IMG/VR virus record: IMGVR_UViG_3300032284_002059
Location: 1 to 41,991 of that record
From: a virus
Strand: one strand, 5' to 3'
DNA: 41,991 nt
Part shown: positions 17,837-30,992 of the stretch, piece by piece
How positions within the stretch are numbered: position 1 is the stretch's first letter
Layout of the letters: each line of letters opens with the position of its first letter
Program-made: the position numbers and the translations under genes
Notes under the pieces: model-generated
Database searches by the model: none
Told to the model about the DNA's origin: nothing
What the model saw: the letters and a program-made list of their open reading frames with translations, nothing else

Positions 17837-19081
17837 TCACTTTGAGAATTTTGAAGCTGCTCTGAGATAAGAATTCATGGCATTGCCATAATCTTCTTCT
17901 GTCTGCTCAGTTAAAATTTCTCCTCTAGAAAATCCTGAATTTCTTGGGAAATATGATTCCTTCAGTGTATTCAGTTTTTCACGATAGTCTGCTTCACTTT
18001 CAAACTCAACACTTTCAGCAAGACTTGCAAGCTTTTCCTTCTGAGTTAAAGCTAACCCTTCAGTTACATCATTTAAGATGGTATCACTTACAGCTTCACT
18101 AAGTCTTTGATTTAACTGAACATTTCTTTCGATTTGTTCATTGAGTTTGTACTCCATTTCATCTAGTCTTTCGACCATGCTCTCTAGCACATTATATTTA
18201 TCTTCAGGGATTTCTACATAATGATCTTCAAAAAGTGACTTAAGTCCAGTCATAAATGACTCAGAGAGTTCTGACTTAAGGCCAGTTTCAATCTGAAGAG
18301 CGTTTTCTTCAACCCACTCTTCAGAAACATACTCAAGGTAAGCATCAACTCTTGAGGTTAATTCTTCCTTGATAGCATCTACTTCTCTAACAAGTTTAGT
18401 ATTAAACTTGTTTTCCATAGATTCTTTGATATCTGCAATCTTAGATCTTACTGCAGATTCAAAAATAAGAGTTGCTTTATTTCTAAAATCTTCAGAAAGA
18501 TTTTGGTCTCCAACTAATGCAGTAACATCTTCTGAGAAGTTAAATTCAAACTCCTCATCCATTTCATCATCTTCCTCATCATCTTCTTCATCATCTTCTT
18601 CTTTCTTTTTCTTCTTCTTACCAGACTCTTCTTCCTCCTCATCATCTTCTTCTTTCATCTTACGGGCTTCTTCCATTTTCTTTTTGCCCATTTTCTTCTT
18701 ACCAGACTCTTCTTCCTCCTCATCATCTTCTTCATCTGCTTCTTCTAGCAGATCTTCATTGTACTCATAATCTTCACCATAGCTTGCTTGCTTGCCTACA
18801 ATCTTTGCAGGCATGGCATCAGCAGCTTTGGCTCCCCTATTGACTACATTTCTTACTGCCTTAAGGGTTGCACCAGGAGTCTTAAGTTTGTTGGAATCTC
18901 CAAGTGGGGAATTTTCTCCTGTTGGAGTAGGTCCACCAAGATCTTCCCAAGAACCAGATTGTCCTTCTACCTTAGCATCAAGCTTAGGCATTGACTCTGC
19001 AGGTCTTGCACCTTTGTTAACAGCGGTGACTGATTTTTTAGTAGATACTTCCATTTCTTGTAAATTGCTACCAGCGCTCAT
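17837..19081 (-). CDS. 22: Prohead core scaffold protein gp22
   Basis: Major internal scaffold of the prohead, removed by gp21 protease. The 414 residues are longer than T4 gp22 (269) because of a highly acidic stretch (about 100-180) of Asp/Glu runs broken by lysine clusters, encoded by a 41-base direct repeat. The N-terminal part holds two similar segments, AVNKGARPAESMP and VVNRGAKAADAMP. The C-terminal 230 residues are helical and coiled-coil rich, as in gp22. It lies between gp21 and gp23 as expected, with a perfect late promoter 48 bases before the ATG. Confidence 0.94.
   Translation of the reverse strand: MSAGSNLQEMEVSTKKSVTAVNKGARPAESMPKLDAKVEGQSGSWEDLGGPTPTGENSPLGDSNKLKTPGATLKAVRNVVNRGAKAADAMPAKIVGKQASYGEDYEYNEDLLEEADEEDDEEEEESGKKKMGKKKMEEARKMKEEDDEEEEESGKKKKKKEEDDEEDDEEDDEMDEEFEFNFSEDVTALVGDQNLSEDFRNKATLIFESAVRSKIADIKESMENKFNTKLVREVDAIKEELTSRVDAYLEYVSEEWVEENALQIETGLKSELSESFMTGLKSLFEDHYVEIPEDKYNVLESMVERLDEMEYKLNEQIERNVQLNQRLSEAVSDTILNDVTEGLALTQKEKLASLAESVEFESEADYREKLNTLKESYFPRNSGFSRGEILTEQTEEDYGNAMNSYLRAASKFSK
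18612..18652. repeat. 41-base direct repeat in gene 22, copy 1
   Basis: Identical to 18693-18733, offset by 81 bases (27 codons, in frame). It encodes part of the acidic run followed by a lysine cluster. Confidence 0.85.
18693..18733. repeat. 41-base direct repeat in gene 22, copy 2
   Basis: Second copy of the in-frame repeat in the acidic region of the scaffold gene. The spacing of 81 bases keeps the reading frame, so unequal exchange would only change protein length. Confidence 0.85.
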
Positions 19082-19139: not shown

Positions 19140-19790
19140 TTAAAGATTTAAAAGATAATCATTCAAAAGTTTGAGTTTTCTTTGTTCAGTTAATTTTTTT
19201 TGTTTTGCATAAGACTCAACTTTTACTTTGGCAACTTCTGCTGCTTTTTCCTTAAGAATGCCACCTTCCCACACCCATTCCTTACCTTCCATAATCCCTT
19301 GAACAAAGGCATCGGGGGCAGAAGGGTCTGCTACAATATCTGCAGCAGTTGCTAACATAAAGTCATCTGAAACATATTTGACTCCATTTCTTTCAATGAG
19401 GGAACCAATTCCCCTAGATGAAACTCCCAACTTTACGCCTTCTCCAAGAAGAGACTTTGCAATATTACCCATTGGGGTATCAAGAATTTTTGCTTTACCT
19501 ACAAAGTTATGTCCCTCAGAACGAAGATCAGTAATCATATGAGAAACTCTATCCAGATTTACAGTGGGACCATCTGGGTGTCCAAGCTCGCCAAGAGCAC
19601 GACCATTCATAATGAATGTATCATTATATCTCTTAACTTCTCTTTCTAGGATTTGGAATGGATAGCATCTACCATTTCTGTTAGTTACTTCAGCTTGAAG
19701 AAATGGTCCTGTAATATACAGGGTTTGTTTACCATTTTTTTCTTCTGTAATAATTTCTACTGATTCTATTTCTTCTGTGATGAGTTTCAT
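19140..19790 (-). CDS. 21: Prohead maturation protease gp21
   Basis: Serine protease that digests the scaffold and trims gp23 before DNA packaging. The 216 residues (T4 212) show LGELGHPDGPTVNLDRVSH with the likely catalytic His71, and GEGVKLGVSSRGIGSL with the likely catalytic Ser124 or Ser125, followed by an acidic pair at about 142-143. This order fits the T4 prohead protease family. The long C-terminal helix, rich in lysine, may anchor the protease in the core before self-cleavage. Confidence 0.96.
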   Translation of the reverse strand: MKLITEEIESVEIITEEKNGKQTLYITGPFLQAEVTNRNGRCYPFQILEREVKRYNDTFIMNGRALGELGHPDGPTVNLDRVSHMITDLRSEGHNFVGKAKILDTPMGNIAKSLLGEGVKLGVSSRGIGSLIERNGVKYVSDDFMLATAADIVADPSAPDAFVQGIMEGKEWVWEGGILKEKAAEVAKVKVESYAKQKKLTEQRKLKLLNDYLLNL

Positions 19791-25162: not shown

Positions 25163-26809
25163 TTATCTGTACTCCCACATGTATGAACGATCTCCATACT
25201 CATCTACCTTCCAAATATCACCATCTTCATCTACTATAGGTTCATCTTCTATCCCAGTAAGAACAAATCCAAATGGAGCCATGTCTTGTTCTATTTGATT
25301 TTTTTGTTCTTCATATAATCTTTTTCTAACATCTTGCTCAGTGAGTTCTTTAAAATAATCCTGTGCAACTAACCAAGCATAGATTACCAAGCACATTGCC
25401 AAGTCGTCATTACATCCTTCTTCAGCTTCAAATGAATTACTTTTTTGAATAAATGTGGTAAGTTCACTAATAATTTCATAGTCACTAAAAATTAATTTAT
25501 CTTCCTCAATCATAGTTTTGAGGTTTAAACATCCAACTTTTTTGACAGTTTTTGACATTTTAATTCCAAGCTGGGTTTTCTTGCCAGAAAATCCTTGACC
25601 AACAATTTGCCCAGCTCTTCCTCTCATAGAACACATTAATAAATTTTGATACTCCAAATCATATTGTAAAATTGATGCTACCTGATCTCCAACATCATTT
25701 ACTTCGCATAGAATAAATGCACTATTGTATGCTTTTGCCACATCATAAATTACATTTGGAAATAGCATAGGTTTGATTTCATTATTTCTATATTTTGCAA
25801 CAATTTTGTGGGGAAATGTTGTTATATCAAATACTACAAATGCTGAGTAATCAATACCCACTCCTCGTGCAACATCCACTGTGAGCACATAATCTTTATC
25901 TAATGAGGCATCTTCATAAACATCTAATCCTTTGCTTTGCTTGATTGGATTGTCATATATTAAACTCTTAAGTTTGCTTGGAGATATTAAAGTATCTACT
26001 GATCCTAAAAATTCACATTCAAATTCAATTTTAAATTGCTGAGCTGAAGTATTTGCAATAGTTTGTTCTTTCCACTTTGAATCTCTTCCTGGAACTTCTG
26101 ACCAGTGAACCTCAGTTGGAATATATTGATTTTTGCCCTTTTCTGCATCATGCCATAAACGATAAAAATGATTCATCCCGTGTGGGGTTGAAACTATGAT
26201 AACTTTTGTGGATTGTCCTGAAGAAATTGTTGGATATACTGATGCAAAGAAGTCATCTGCAAGGTGATTTTGAACGAATGCAAATTCATCCAAGAAAATA
26301 ATATTATAAGAACCTCCTCTAACTGCTGAGGCTGATGTAGAAGCAGCAAGAATCTTTGAGCCATTCTCCAGTTCCATAGAACCCTTGTTCCAGGCTAGAA
26401 TGCCCTGCTGAAGCCATTTGGGAAGGTTTTCATAGGCAGTTTGCAATCTGTTTAACAAATCCCTTGCAGTAGATGCTTTGTTGGCTAGAATTGCAATATT
26501 GACATTATCATTAAAAATTGCATAATGAAGCAAATATGATACAACAGTTGTAGATTTGCCTGTTTGACGAGGCATCTTACAAATATTAAATCTATTATTA
26601 TGGAAATTTTTAATTAATTTTTCTTGGAAAATATATGGTTTAAATGGTTGAAGACCATGATCCAAAGTTACAATCTTAACATAATTTTTGGCAAAATATA
26701 CTGGATTTTTTTTACACTTTATAAATTCATTAATTTGATCCTCAGTAAACTCAATAGAGGTATTTGCCTTTTTTAAAAGGGGATTACCTAAGTAAATATT
26801 ATCAGCCAT
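25163..26809 (-). CDS. 17: Terminase large subunit gp17
   Basis: Packaging motor with ATPase and nuclease domains. The 548 residues (T4 610) show Walker A PRQTGKST at 80-87, Walker B IIFLDEFAF at about 170-178 and the coupling motif VSTPHG near 207. The nuclease domain has D312 (LTVDVARG), E369 (LCEVND) and D468/D469 (GCNDDLAM). It ends with a Tyr/Trp-rich tail. In T4 gene 16 overlaps gene 17; here a 1.5-kb gene stands between them. Confidence 0.97.
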   Translation of the reverse strand: MADNIYLGNPLLKKANTSIEFTEDQINEFIKCKKNPVYFAKNYVKIVTLDHGLQPFKPYIFQEKLIKNFHNNRFNICKMPRQTGKSTTVVSYLLHYAIFNDNVNIAILANKASTARDLLNRLQTAYENLPKWLQQGILAWNKGSMELENGSKILAASTSASAVRGGSYNIIFLDEFAFVQNHLADDFFASVYPTISSGQSTKVIIVSTPHGMNHFYRLWHDAEKGKNQYIPTEVHWSEVPGRDSKWKEQTIANTSAQQFKIEFECEFLGSVDTLISPSKLKSLIYDNPIKQSKGLDVYEDASLDKDYVLTVDVARGVGIDYSAFVVFDITTFPHKIVAKYRNNEIKPMLFPNVIYDVAKAYNSAFILCEVNDVGDQVASILQYDLEYQNLLMCSMRGRAGQIVGQGFSGKKTQLGIKMSKTVKKVGCLNLKTMIEEDKLIFSDYEIISELTTFIQKSNSFEAEEGCNDDLAMCLVIYAWLVAQDYFKELTEQDVRKRLYEEQKNQIEQDMAPFGFVLTGIEDEPIVDEDGDIWKVDEYGDRSYMWEYR

Positions 26810-26826
26810 AATAATTTCCTATTATA

Positions 26827-28314
26827 TCAGCAATTCCACTTTCTCAAAGATAATGCTTTTCTTGTTGGTCTTCCTTTTTCATCTTTCATAGGACCAGGCA
26901 TTCCACCCATACGGGCACAGAATGATTTTCTACGATTTGCTGACTTTGATCCTGGTTTTAATTCTGATGGTGGTGTAGTAACCGCAAGAGAAAGATGAGA
27001 ACCTGGATGTTCTTTGCGATAAGAAGCAATTCCTTTTTTGTTCAATCCTCCCTCAGGATTCTTTCCCTCTTTTCTTTGCCATGCAGCACTTTCAGAAACA
27101 GATTTTTTTCTTCTATTAATTTCTTTCTGAATTCTTTTTAACATAAACTGATTAGCTGGAGATGATTGGTCCATAGAACTAAATTGTTTGTGTGCTGCAG
27201 ATAATTGATCATCTGTTTGACGACCCATTTTTGCATCTTCTGCAAGTTGCATAAACTCAGAAAAAGTAAGGGAAGCATCTTCTGCAGCAACACAGTTTGG
27301 AACTTCTTTACCCCCCTTCATTTTTGTGGGTGGCTTTCCTACTTTCTTACCAGTCCAACACTTACTTGCACCAACATTTTGTCTTGCTTGTTTTAAATCT
27401 TCTGAAATTTGTTCTCCAAGTTCTCCAAGTGCCTTTGCTTTACGAACTTTTTTTGATCTTAACTTACCACCAGGATAGTTTCTTTCATCATTACCCTCAA
27501 AATCGGGATCTACATTAGCACGATGTCTTGCTGCTCTTTCTGGAGATGCTGATGGTTTGTGAATACCTGATCTGCGTCCAGGTGCAATTTTTTCTGCTGC
27601 TCTTTTTTGACTTCTGTTAACTTTACTACGTTGTACCTTGAAGTCCTTTAAAGTCATACCTTCTTCCATATGCTCTTCATCAATATCAAGAGTTTTTGGA
27701 TATCCTTTTTCTCCTGGTTTTTTGGGTGGTTTACCTGCTTTTTTGCGAGCATTAATGTTGTCCCATAATCCTCTTTTTTCATTTATAGAATCTTCATTTA
27801 CTTTACTTTCGCCACTATCAAGATAATCTGCAGCAGTATCTAAGTAATCTGATGCTTTAGTAATTTTTGACTGAATCCAAGCTTCAATATTTCCTTCTCC
27901 TTTCATTTTCTGTTGCAATCTTTTAATTGCACTTATAGCAGTTTTTAATTCAGATCTTGCCATAGAATACTCATGATCTTTTTCTTCTGGCATATTTGCT
28001 GGATGCACTGTAGCAATAGAAAACTTTTTCCACATTTCAGGTCCAAACTTACATTCCTGTTGGGTTTCTGATTTTCTACAAAGATTACAATATCTTTTTC
28101 CTTCTAATCCCATTTTAGAGTTTTCTACAGATTCTTTCATAGCTTTAATCCAAGTATCTGGGGTTTTGTTGTGTTTTTTTACAAAATTGTTGTGAAGTTC
28201 TTTCGCAGTCATATTATATTTTTTCATAATAACTCTCATCAAATGATCAATAGAATCATAAGAAGTATTGGTAAGTTTTTTTAATCCAATTTCAAGTTCT
28301 TTAACTGCCTGCAT
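26827..28314 (-). CDS. Modular basic protein between terminase genes (DUF6321-like C-terminus)
   Basis: A protein of 495 residues, very rich in Lys, Arg and Gly. Modules seen in order: an N-terminal helical part (1-65) with LHNNFVKKHNKTPDTWIKAM; a Cys cluster (C76, C79, C88); a helical pair (112-170); a GLWDNINARKKAGKPPKKPG element (182-201) like short modules in many DNA viruses; a basic linker; KCWTGKKVGKPPTKMKGGKE (318-337) flanked by cysteines; and a C-terminal module (410-495) with AAWQRKEGKNPEGGLNKKG and KSFCARMGGMPGPMKDEKGR, recalled as DUF6321. No enzyme motif is seen. DNA binding or packaging into the head is a guess. It overlaps the gp16 stop. Confidence 0.85.
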   Translation of the reverse strand: MQAVKELEIGLKKLTNTSYDSIDHLMRVIMKKYNMTAKELHNNFVKKHNKTPDTWIKAMKESVENSKMGLEGKRYCNLCRKSETQQECKFGPEMWKKFSIATVHPANMPEEKDHEYSMARSELKTAISAIKRLQQKMKGEGNIEAWIQSKITKASDYLDTAADYLDSGESKVNEDSINEKRGLWDNINARKKAGKPPKKPGEKGYPKTLDIDEEHMEEGMTLKDFKVQRSKVNRSQKRAAEKIAPGRRSGIHKPSASPERAARHRANVDPDFEGNDERNYPGGKLRSKKVRKAKALGELGEQISEDLKQARQNVGASKCWTGKKVGKPPTKMKGGKEVPNCVAAEDASLTFSEFMQLAEDAKMGRQTDDQLSAAHKQFSSMDQSSPANQFMLKRIQKEINRRKKSVSESAAWQRKEGKNPEGGLNKKGIASYRKEHPGSHLSLAVTTPPSELKPGSKSANRRKSFCARMGGMPGPMKDEKGRPTRKALSLRKWNC

Positions 28315-28736
28315 TAAACTTCAGTTTCTTCTACATTATTTAGAAGACCTTGTTTTATAAGTTTGGACAATTCTGCAGTTGATCCTACAAAAAGTGAATT
28401 ATTAACTGTTGTTGGACCTTTTTGGGGAGCATCCAATTCTCTCATTTTCTTTTGAAGATCAATTAGTTTATCTGTGGTATCTGCAACAGATTTAATTAAT
28501 TGACCTGCAACTTCAAATGCTCTTGGATGTCCAGATTCTTGGGCAATCTCTAATATGCCATCAACTGCTTCTTGACCCTTAGAGATTAAACTATAAAGTT
28601 GTCCTCTACTGTATTCATAATCCTTTTGAGGATCATTTGGAGCATTGACTGGAGTAATGTCGATAGGATCTGTTATAGGGACAATAGATGTCTCTATATT
28701 TAATGATTCTTCTATCTTAGAAAATTTCTTTGCCAT
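28314..28736 (-). CDS. 16: Terminase small subunit gp16
   Basis: Regulates the packaging ATPase and recognises DNA for packaging. The 140 residues (T4 164) show the gp16 core: SRGQLYSLISKGQEAVDGIL, AQESGHPRAFEVAGQLIKSV, TTDKLIDLQKKMRELDAP and the C-terminal NNSLFVGSTAELSKLIKQGL, all typical of T4-like gp16. The central helices form the oligomerising coiled coil. Its stop shares one base with the start of the modular gene, which separates it from gene 17. Confidence 0.94.
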   Translation of the reverse strand: MAKKFSKIEESLNIETSIVPITDPIDITPVNAPNDPQKDYEYSRGQLYSLISKGQEAVDGILEIAQESGHPRAFEVAGQLIKSVADTTDKLIDLQKKMRELDAPQKGPTTVNNSLFVGSTAELSKLIKQGLLNNVEETEV

Positions 28737-29618: not shown

Positions 29619-30992
29619 TTAAACTTCACCAAATGGATTAACTTCAGTGAATACTAAAATATTATCTGATTCCTCTTGTATGACTGCATTTTCATCATAT
29701 GCAGAATTAAGTTGGAATGTATCGTATTTAGACAATATGTAAATTGAACTTGATGCAGCACCTACAATTACATCTCCTACCACAAAATCAGTTCCCATAC
29801 CAGCAACCATAAGTTGGTTGGTTTCTGCATCCCATCTTTTAACAATACCAACAGCATTTGATAATGAACCAGTTACTTGTTCCTCAAATATAAAATTGCC
29901 ATAAGAAATACTAGAACCTGCTCCAATTGTAATTGTAGGTGCTACAGTGTATCCAATACCAGCATTTTCAATTCTAATAGTAGATATTTCTCCAGAACCA
30001 TTTAAAAATGCTCTGGCAATTGCAGTTGTTCCTCCAGAAACTGGAGGTGAGAATGTAACAGAAGGTTCTGAGGTATATCCTTGTCCTGGATATGATAATA
30101 CAATAGGACCAACGCTTCCAGAGGTTCCTAATCCAACTTTAACTACCGCTCCATATCCATTTCCCCCAAAGAAATTTATAGCAGGGGGATTTCCGTTACT
30201 ATATCCAGATCCTGGATTTTCTAAATAAACTTTTTCTAAACTTAAAGAGGAAAGTAATCCTCTTTTACTTGTCATTATCCCTACCGCTGTTGCTTTAACA
30301 CCTCCAAGTGGAGATGTAACAACCAATGTTGGGGCAGAAGAATATCTATATCCACCATCAATAACTTCAATTGTTTGAATTGCTCCATTGACTAAACTGG
30401 TATAAGCAGTAGCAGTTGCTCCTAGTCCAGAAAGAGATAATATGGCATCATAGCCAAGATCTTTAACAGCTCTATCAACTTCATCTATAGTAGTTTCAAT
30501 TTCATCATCTTCTAGCTCATATACTTCGCATCTTAATTCATAAACATAATTTTTTTGAAGTTGATAAAATGGTTTTCTATTTTCTACATATTTGATTTCC
30601 ATTACACTGTCTGATAATGGAATATAAAGTAAATCACCTTCATTAGGTCTTAATGGATTAACTCCACCAATACCTTTCATCAACTCTCCTACATATGTTT
30701 CAAAACGTTCTTTTGAAATAATCAATGTCATTTCATCAGTAACTTTAACCCCAAACTTACTCATCAATACACTATTTGGATCAAATCCTTCATAATTAAC
30801 CAAATATGCTTCTATTGGGAATGCAGATTTAAATTTAGAATAAAGTACATCTTTAATTATTTTTCCTTGAGATACTATTTGTCTTGGCAAATAGTATACT
30901 TCTATTCCATAAGTTTTTAATTGTTCATTAATTAAATCTTGAACAAGGTTTTGTTCGCCTGATGTTCCTTGGATGAAAAATGGATTTAACAT
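29619..30992 (-). CDS. 14: Neck protein gp14 with a four-repeat insert
   Basis: Neck protein that with gp13 joins head and tail. Residues 1-170 match T4 gp14 by eye: VYYLPRQIV, AYLVNYEGFD, MSKFGVKVTDEMTLIISKER, PNEGDLLYIPLSDSVMEIKY and KPFYQLQKNYVYEL. The protein has 457 residues against 256 in T4. The extra part (about 190-356) holds four repeats of about 36-50 residues, each ending in G-x-G-Y-x-x-x-P-x-hydrophobic. The tail ends with NILVFTEVNPFGEV, matching T4 SPFDNDF-type ends only loosely. Confidence 0.93.
   Translation of the reverse strand: MLNPFFIQGTSGEQNLVQDLINEQLKTYGIEVYYLPRQIVSQGKIIKDVLYSKFKSAFPIEAYLVNYEGFDPNSVLMSKFGVKVTDEMTLIISKERFETYVGELMKGIGGVNPLRPNEGDLLYIPLSDSVMEIKYVENRKPFYQLQKNYVYELRCEVYELEDDEIETTIDEVDRAVKDLGYDAILSLSGLGATATAYTSLVNGAIQTIEVIDGGYRYSSAPTLVVTSPLGGVKATAVGIMTSKRGLLSSLSLEKVYLENPGSGYSNGNPPAINFFGGNGYGAVVKVGLGTSGSVGPIVLSYPGQGYTSEPSVTFSPPVSGGTTAIARAFLNGSGEISTIRIENAGIGYTVAPTITIGAGSSISYGNFIFEEQVTGSLSNAVGIVKRWDAETNQLMVAGMGTDFVVGDVIVGAASSSIYILSKYDTFQLNSAYDENAVIQEESDNILVFTEVNPFGEV

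Follow-up and report, generated by a model that had tools for sequence, protein, structure and literature searches.

A modular basic protein encoded between the terminase genes of a T4-type phage: a candidate internal head protein

Results and Discussion

Organization of the locus

The window analyzed here is the whole stretch of 41,991 nucleotides comprising positions 1 to 41,991 of the IMG/VR virus record IMGVR_UViG_3300032284_002059. The genes of gp13-15 and gp18-20 are found as neighbors and, together with a gp21-type prohead protease, a gp22-type scaffold and the major capsid protein, identify the window as the head-tail block of a T4-type phage. The isolates nearest to its gp17 are cyanomyoviruses (83% identity), and the source phage is T4-type and Kyanoviridae-like. 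The features considered are listed in Table 1.

The gene under study runs from 28314 to 26827 with an ATG start and 495 codons. Its first base overlaps the stop of gp16, which lies upstream, while gp17 lies downstream, both assigned by PHROG and Pfam. An earlier note, prepared from the DNA letters, had described a 495-residue protein of high charge separating the terminase subunits; it is found as described, on the minus strand. With 101 K+R versus 64 D+E, it stands out in the window as the one large protein of strongly basic character, the other listed open reading frames being nowhere near its net charge. As a separate observation, the gp14-type neck protein (29619-30992) bears a long extension at its C-terminus, for which the matches are repeat regions in structural proteins of the virion, those of baseplate and fibre included (PHROGs 701, 5342 and 708).

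Table 1. Features of the window discussed in the text
Feature	Position	Strand	Evidence
gp22-type head scaffold, core bound by T4 internal proteins	17837..19081	-	PHROG 237 6e-96
gp21-type prohead protease, enzyme expected to process a T4-like tag	19140..19790	-	PHROG 207 9e-83
gp17, terminase large subunit	25163..26809	-	PHROG 2 2e-74; Pfam Terminase_6N/6C
Mosaic basic protein, 495 aa, net +37, orthologue at T4-GC 119 locus	26827..28314	-	Same locus in S-SM1, Syn9 gp114, S-E7, S-SRM01, S-CREM2, S-SCSM1
DUF6321, aa 408-495, conserved R461, C466, W493, C495	26830..27093	-	Pfam PF19846 2e-23; alignments; AlphaFold pLDDT 86
M7, aa 360-404, predicted helical linker	27103..27237	-	Predicted structure
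Capsid-targeting-like motif TFSEFMQLAE, aa 350-359, candidate prohead-protease site L357-A358-E359	27238..27267	-	T4 IPII/IPIII MKTYQEFIAEA
M6, aa 316-345, KCWTGKK..KGGKEVPNC, second K/G motif	27280..27369	-	Also in virion proteins S-SCSM1_29, S-CREM2 ORF160, S-SZBM1_139
M5, aa 214-308, low confidence, ends KKVRKAKALGELGE	27391..27675	-	25 relatives; pLDDT <50 for aa 244-286
M4, aa 178-212, RGLWDNINARKKAGKPPKKPGEKGYPKT, first K/G motif	27679..27783	-	44 relatives
M3, aa 111-170, two-helix block, AWxQSKIT motif	27805..27984	-	59 relatives by iterated profile; alignment
M2, aa 70-101, Cys cluster C76/C79/C88	28012..28107	-	42% identity with S-SCSM1_29, a virion protein, across 45 aa (E 2e-8); blocks' mean pLDDT 83-93
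M1, aa 1-61	28132..28314	-	Predicted helical; AlphaFold helices at low confidence; also S-CREM2 ORF137 aa 175-235, pairwise BLASTP E 6e-7
gp16, terminase small subunit	28314..28736	-	PHROG 445 3e-53

Modules and predicted structure

At least four small modules had been proposed for this protein, with a Cys cluster, two lysine/glycine motifs and a DUF6321-like end. All of these were recovered, and iterated profiles, combined with alignments, bring the number of modules to about eight. The Cys cluster has the spacing C76-x2-C79-x8-C88 and M2 is a possible small metal-binding fold. The two K/G motifs read GKPPKKPGEKGYPKT and GKKVGKPPTKMKGGKEVPNC. M1 is shared with S-CREM2 ORF137, itself a virion protein, and M5 occurs twice in S-SZBM1_194. 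The iterated profile search of the collected loci returned no relative of M7. The DUF6321 match covers residues 417-493 with 83.2 bits against a cut-off of 28.5 and extends over the full length of the profile (1-72/72); Pfam gives no function for this family, which represents one of the modules only.

The AlphaFold model of the full-length protein shows small, separate folds with flexible linkers between them (mean pLDDT 71, pTM 0.27). A fold search with this model was set aside, since such a pTM makes it meaningless. The fold search with the DUF6321 model alone yielded no PDB match and a profile search of the PDB sequences gave none of note. PADLOC, NCBIfam and the plasmid collection gave no match, and none of the papers searched names DUF6321. 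In uncultured phages, DUF6321-like folds were also seen joined to other proteins, one with an AAA domain and one with a ferritin/Dps domain (BFVD A0A6J5R4H4 and A0A6J5N5R9).

The gp16-gp17 interval in related phages

In T4, gp16 (96194-96688) overlaps gp17 (96672-98504), and the contrast drawn in the earlier note is therefore correct. The separation is nevertheless not peculiar to this phage: a gap of 626-3980 bp is present in 53/53 IMG/VR loci, most of them with DUF6321 in it, and separation of the two genes is ordinary, indeed the rule in this family. The interval was listed as a hot spot by Sullivan et al. 2010, crediting Millard et al. 2009 (PMC3037559). Its recurrent element is a DUF6321 protein, found in S-SM1 (S-SM1_115, T4-GC 119), Syn9 (gp114), S-E7 and S-SRM01; the S-PM2 interval contains none. 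The mosaic protein is matched by 512 phage records, chiefly of cyanophages and mostly over the DUF6321 end.

Like the members of T4-GC 119 (S-SM1_115, Syn9 gp114 and the 'structural protein' of S-E7), the mosaic gene lies between gp16 and gp17, right after gp16 or, in some phages, one small gene later, and encodes a basic protein with a CW module and a C-terminal DUF6321. The N-terminal modules differ, the window protein being devoid of the DWF/PCA and DACYHKV modules. Module sets also vary among relatives with 90-92% identity in gp16 and gp17, and the dN/dS values of 0.09-0.20 in the shared modules indicate purifying selection. The two observations together describe a working gene with shuffled modules; a broken fusion limited to this strain, an eventuality raised in the earlier note, is ruled out by these dN/dS values.

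Three further observations concern the same families. A mosaic DUF6321 homologue located between gp16 and gp17 (L092:3176-5245) seems to contain an intein, in the form of a Hint-like stretch (Pfam Hint at 3.6e-4, which is below cut-off) inserted in the DACYTKVKSRYSVWPSAYA/SGALVKC module. In the T7-like cyanopodovirus S-CBP4, a stand-alone untagged DUF6321 protein (L260:8953-9204) is encoded between the scaffold and major capsid genes. In many loci the mosaic gene is followed by a member of a second tagged family, with proteins of about 105 aa (MKSYKQFLSESINIAGDFNG...; L004:4247-4561, L036:4759-5073, S-SZBM1_191 and S-SCSM1_30); its members were not detected in S-SZBM1 virions and bear no virion label in S-SCSM1.

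Presence of orthologues in virions

The association with virions is well supported by two cultured cyanophages. S-CREM2 ORF137, encoded between gp16 and gp17, combines DUF6321 with M1 and was identified in particles by mass spectrometry with 4 unique peptides and a coverage of 4.1%; ORF136, located in the same interval, was identified with 8 unique peptides (PMC10665884 Table 3). S-SCSM1_29 (SSCSM1_29), also lying between gp16 and gp17, combines DUF6321, M2 and M6 and is labeled 'virion protein' in its record. By count, 48 proteins are so labeled in that record, as compared to the 45 proteins detected by MS in the corresponding paper, and the labels are accordingly taken as MS-based with slight uncertainty. 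Other module-bearing virion proteins are S-CREM2 ORF160, S-SZBM1_139 and S-SCSM1_93, so that 5/7 module-bearing proteins are found in virions across the three proteomed genomes (S-CREM2, S-SZBM1 and S-SCSM1). The earlier note had set absence from virions, together with a lack of DNA binding, against its own proposal; orthologues are present in the virions of S-CREM2 and S-SCSM1.

The strongest contrary fact is the virion proteomics of S-SZBM1, where the DUF6321 protein (192), the mosaic protein (194) and the tagged 105-aa protein (191) were not detected. S-SZBM1_190, an MS-detected protein of the same interval, was considered as an orthologue and rejected, as it is slightly acidic, lacks DUF6321 and shares no module. 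In the Syn9 record gp114 lacks the structural flag that other proteins bear, and the annotation of S-SM1_115 reads 'hypothetical'. ORF137 of S-CREM2 is acidic (net -20); basicity is therefore not universal among the orthologues. Virion MS does not distinguish internal from external positions, and carry-over was allowed for by the authors of the proteomes.

A capsid-targeting-like motif

T4 IPII and IPIII start with MKTYQEFIAEA and IPI with MKTFKEF. Work covered by a review (PMC9026906) showed that the initial 10 residues of IPIII are enough for entry into the head, positions 4 and 7 serving targeting and positions 8 and 10 processing. Comparable strings accompany DUF6321, at the N-terminus of some stand-alone proteins (MKTFNQFIAEEAW, MKSFKQFLEESAAW, MITFKEYISEAG) and internally, just before the domain, in fused proteins (TYSQFMTEVAAW); a further internal string is TFSQFMTEVAAW. 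The mosaic protein itself begins with MQAVKELEIGLKK and its motif is internal. Residues F351, F354 and M355 fit T4 positions 4, 7 and 8; position 10 is L instead of E, and L-A-E occurs two residues later. Close relatives with TFSQFMTE display a full fit to the T4 tag positions.

The motif precedes DUF6321 in 35/62 proteins from loci with T4-like genes versus 4/49 elsewhere, and it is present in 32/76 ORFs of the gp16-gp17 interval versus 2/341 flanking ORFs in the 53 loci; as many of these counts are made over related sequences, p values overstate their independence. The whole genomes of S-CREM2, S-SZBM1 and S-SCSM1 were then scanned for N-terminal tags with the T4 spacing. The first regular expression required S/T/N before the aromatic residue, missed the tags of the SAM lyase and of the kinase and was replaced by a positional version. 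Four tagged proteins were found in S-CREM2 (SAM hydrolase, APH-like kinase, ORF136 and cytidylyltransferase), all four in virions. Three were found in S-SZBM1, where the cytidylyltransferase is in virions and 191 and 192, from the gp16-gp17 interval, were not detected, and three in S-SCSM1, where the NMNAT and ORF31 are in virions and ORF30 is not. The 10 tags compare with about 0.6 expected from shuffled N-termini. Across the three genomes 7/10 tagged proteins are virion proteins versus 123/611 others (Fisher p=0.001), with S-CREM2 being partly a training case, as the pattern was widened once after seeing its SAM hydrolase and kinase, and with the independent support being smaller than the p value suggests, since the cytidylyltransferase and NMNAT are homologues of one family.

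The S-AdoMet lyase domain shows that one and the same cargo occurs with the tag in both N-terminal and internal position. In S-SZBM1_194 this domain directly follows TYREFIAEG. Of 80 IMG/VR relatives of this stretch, 77 were readable and 75 of these have the motif ahead of the lyase (73 internal and 2 N-terminal), a frequency biased upward since the loci were retrieved with a tag-containing query. Mosaic proteins of the S-SZBM1_194 type resemble the window protein in locus, in M5 and in the internal tag directly before a C-terminal cargo domain; their cargo is, however, the lyase domain (PF23780) and not DUF6321.

Proposed role and alternative explanations

With orthologues detected in particles of two cultured cyanophages and a sequence resembling the T4 head-loading tag, the mosaic protein is probably a cargo delivered with the DNA. 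We propose, with a probability of roughly 60%, that the product of the mosaic gene is an internal head protein of modular build in a T4-type phage, working like T4 IPI-III and Alt. Small basic modules and a constant C-terminal DUF6321 would be assembled into one protein, which the capsid-targeting-like element would bring into the prohead core. The gp21-type protease might then cut it inside the prohead, putatively at L357-A358-E359, and the product would stay amid the packaged DNA and travel with the genome into the cell, where it may perform a task in the host. Its charge suggests possible DNA binding, for which the fold searches gave no supporting match. The earlier note had considered a protein ejected with DNA: with regard to a presence in particles this is supported by the orthologues and by the motif, and ejection itself is probable. 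What is new is the functional link formed by the virion orthologues and the tag-like motif, the gp16-gp17 hot spot being already known.

The likeness to T4 IPI, IPII, IPIII and Alt comprises a basic or neutral character, a short [FY]xxF[IL]xE tag, a candidate prohead-protease site, a variable and dispensable cargo, and the presence of gp21 and gp22 in the same genome. Unlike these proteins, the window protein has an internal tag (N-terminal in some relatives) and a body made of modules with DUF6321. Its net charge agrees with the basic proteins of the T4 CTS class, whose tag is N-terminal; given the internal tag and the lack of detected homology, with no IPI-III or Alt family among the Pfam and PHROG matches, it is not filed in the T4 internal-protein class. 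The inner-body ejection proteins of phiKZ and SPN3US are located within the head and cut after Glu by a gp21-related protease (PMC9026906); they belong to a different phage group, and the likeness to the window protein lies in its proposed location and cleavage.

Among the alternatives, an external virion component, such as a head decoration or a neck or tail accessory whose modules are exchanged like fibre domains, is unlikely. Fibre proteins and beta-rich proteins of the virion are indeed encoded in the interval (S-SCSM1_26-28 and 31, S-SZBM1_195), and the S-E7 member of T4-GC 119 bears a structural annotation; the high positive charge, the beads-on-a-string model with disordered stretches, a structure predicted to be mostly helical and a targeting-like motif of the kind typical for core proteins speak against an outer position. 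Slightly less likely again is an unpackaged late intracellular protein, for instance an effector or inhibitor directed at the host, the detections being carry-over. The S-SZBM1 result, the unflagged Syn9 and S-SM1 proteins, the low S-CREM2 coverage and the stand-alone forms of other phages, mostly devoid of the motif, would agree with it. It is opposed by the presence in two independent virion preparations, by the modules common to several other virion proteins and by the association of the motif with virion proteins.

The least likely explanation is a DNA-binding terminase or packaging accessory acting with gp16 and gp17, found in virions as a residue. The position of the gene, overlapping the gp16 stop, and the strong positive charge are in its favor, and the earlier note's suggestion of a link to packaging comes from the gene neighborhood. 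This known hypervariable insertion site (PMC3037559) also holds fibre, decoration and metabolic genes, so that the neighborhood says little on packaging. The S-PM2 interval manages without a DUF6321 protein, a podovirus carries one beside its scaffold and capsid genes, and ORF137 was detected in S-CREM2 virions whereas the terminase subunits were not.

An extension of the internal head protein proposal, offered tentatively and doubtful as yet, is that the tag constitutes an exchangeable cassette in cyanophages and their relatives. Tag-plus-cargo units (DUF6321, SAM lyase, cytidylyltransferase/NMNAT and APH-like kinase) would exist either alone or fused, with basic modules in front of them. When fused, their internal tag would also provide a prohead-protease site freeing the cargo inside the head, and mosaic proteins such as that of the window would hence be polyproteins that are packaged and reach the cell together with the genome. 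T4-like cyanophages rank among the most common viruses of the ocean, and cytidylyltransferases, kinases and SAM hydrolases recur in their particles by an unexplained entry route. If true, a T4-type loading tag would explain the entry of these enzymes, delivered proteins would become predictable from sequence, and DUF6321 with its companion modules, present in hundreds of sequenced marine phages, would receive a first testable role. In the literature search, 'capsid targeting sequence' and 'cyanophage' occurred together only in one T4 review.

Two additional observations were made on tagged proteins. A T4-CTS-like string (MKNFSSFLTEA, MRSFLTFLTEA, MKKFSAFLTEA, MRFRQFIIEA or MKSFLQFLKEA) stands at the start of most cyanophage cytidylyltransferase/NMNAT proteins (T4-GC 190), a group with repeated reports from virions; the members include L169:24608-25468 and homologues in L177, L178 and L179, S-SZBM1_140 and S-SCSM1_91. 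S-CREM2 contains a virion-detected accessory cluster (L167:3837-13331) encoding a SAM lyase, a Cas9-annotated nuclease, a kinase and small proteins, in which ORFs 6, 13, 14 and 15 all display tag-like N-termini.
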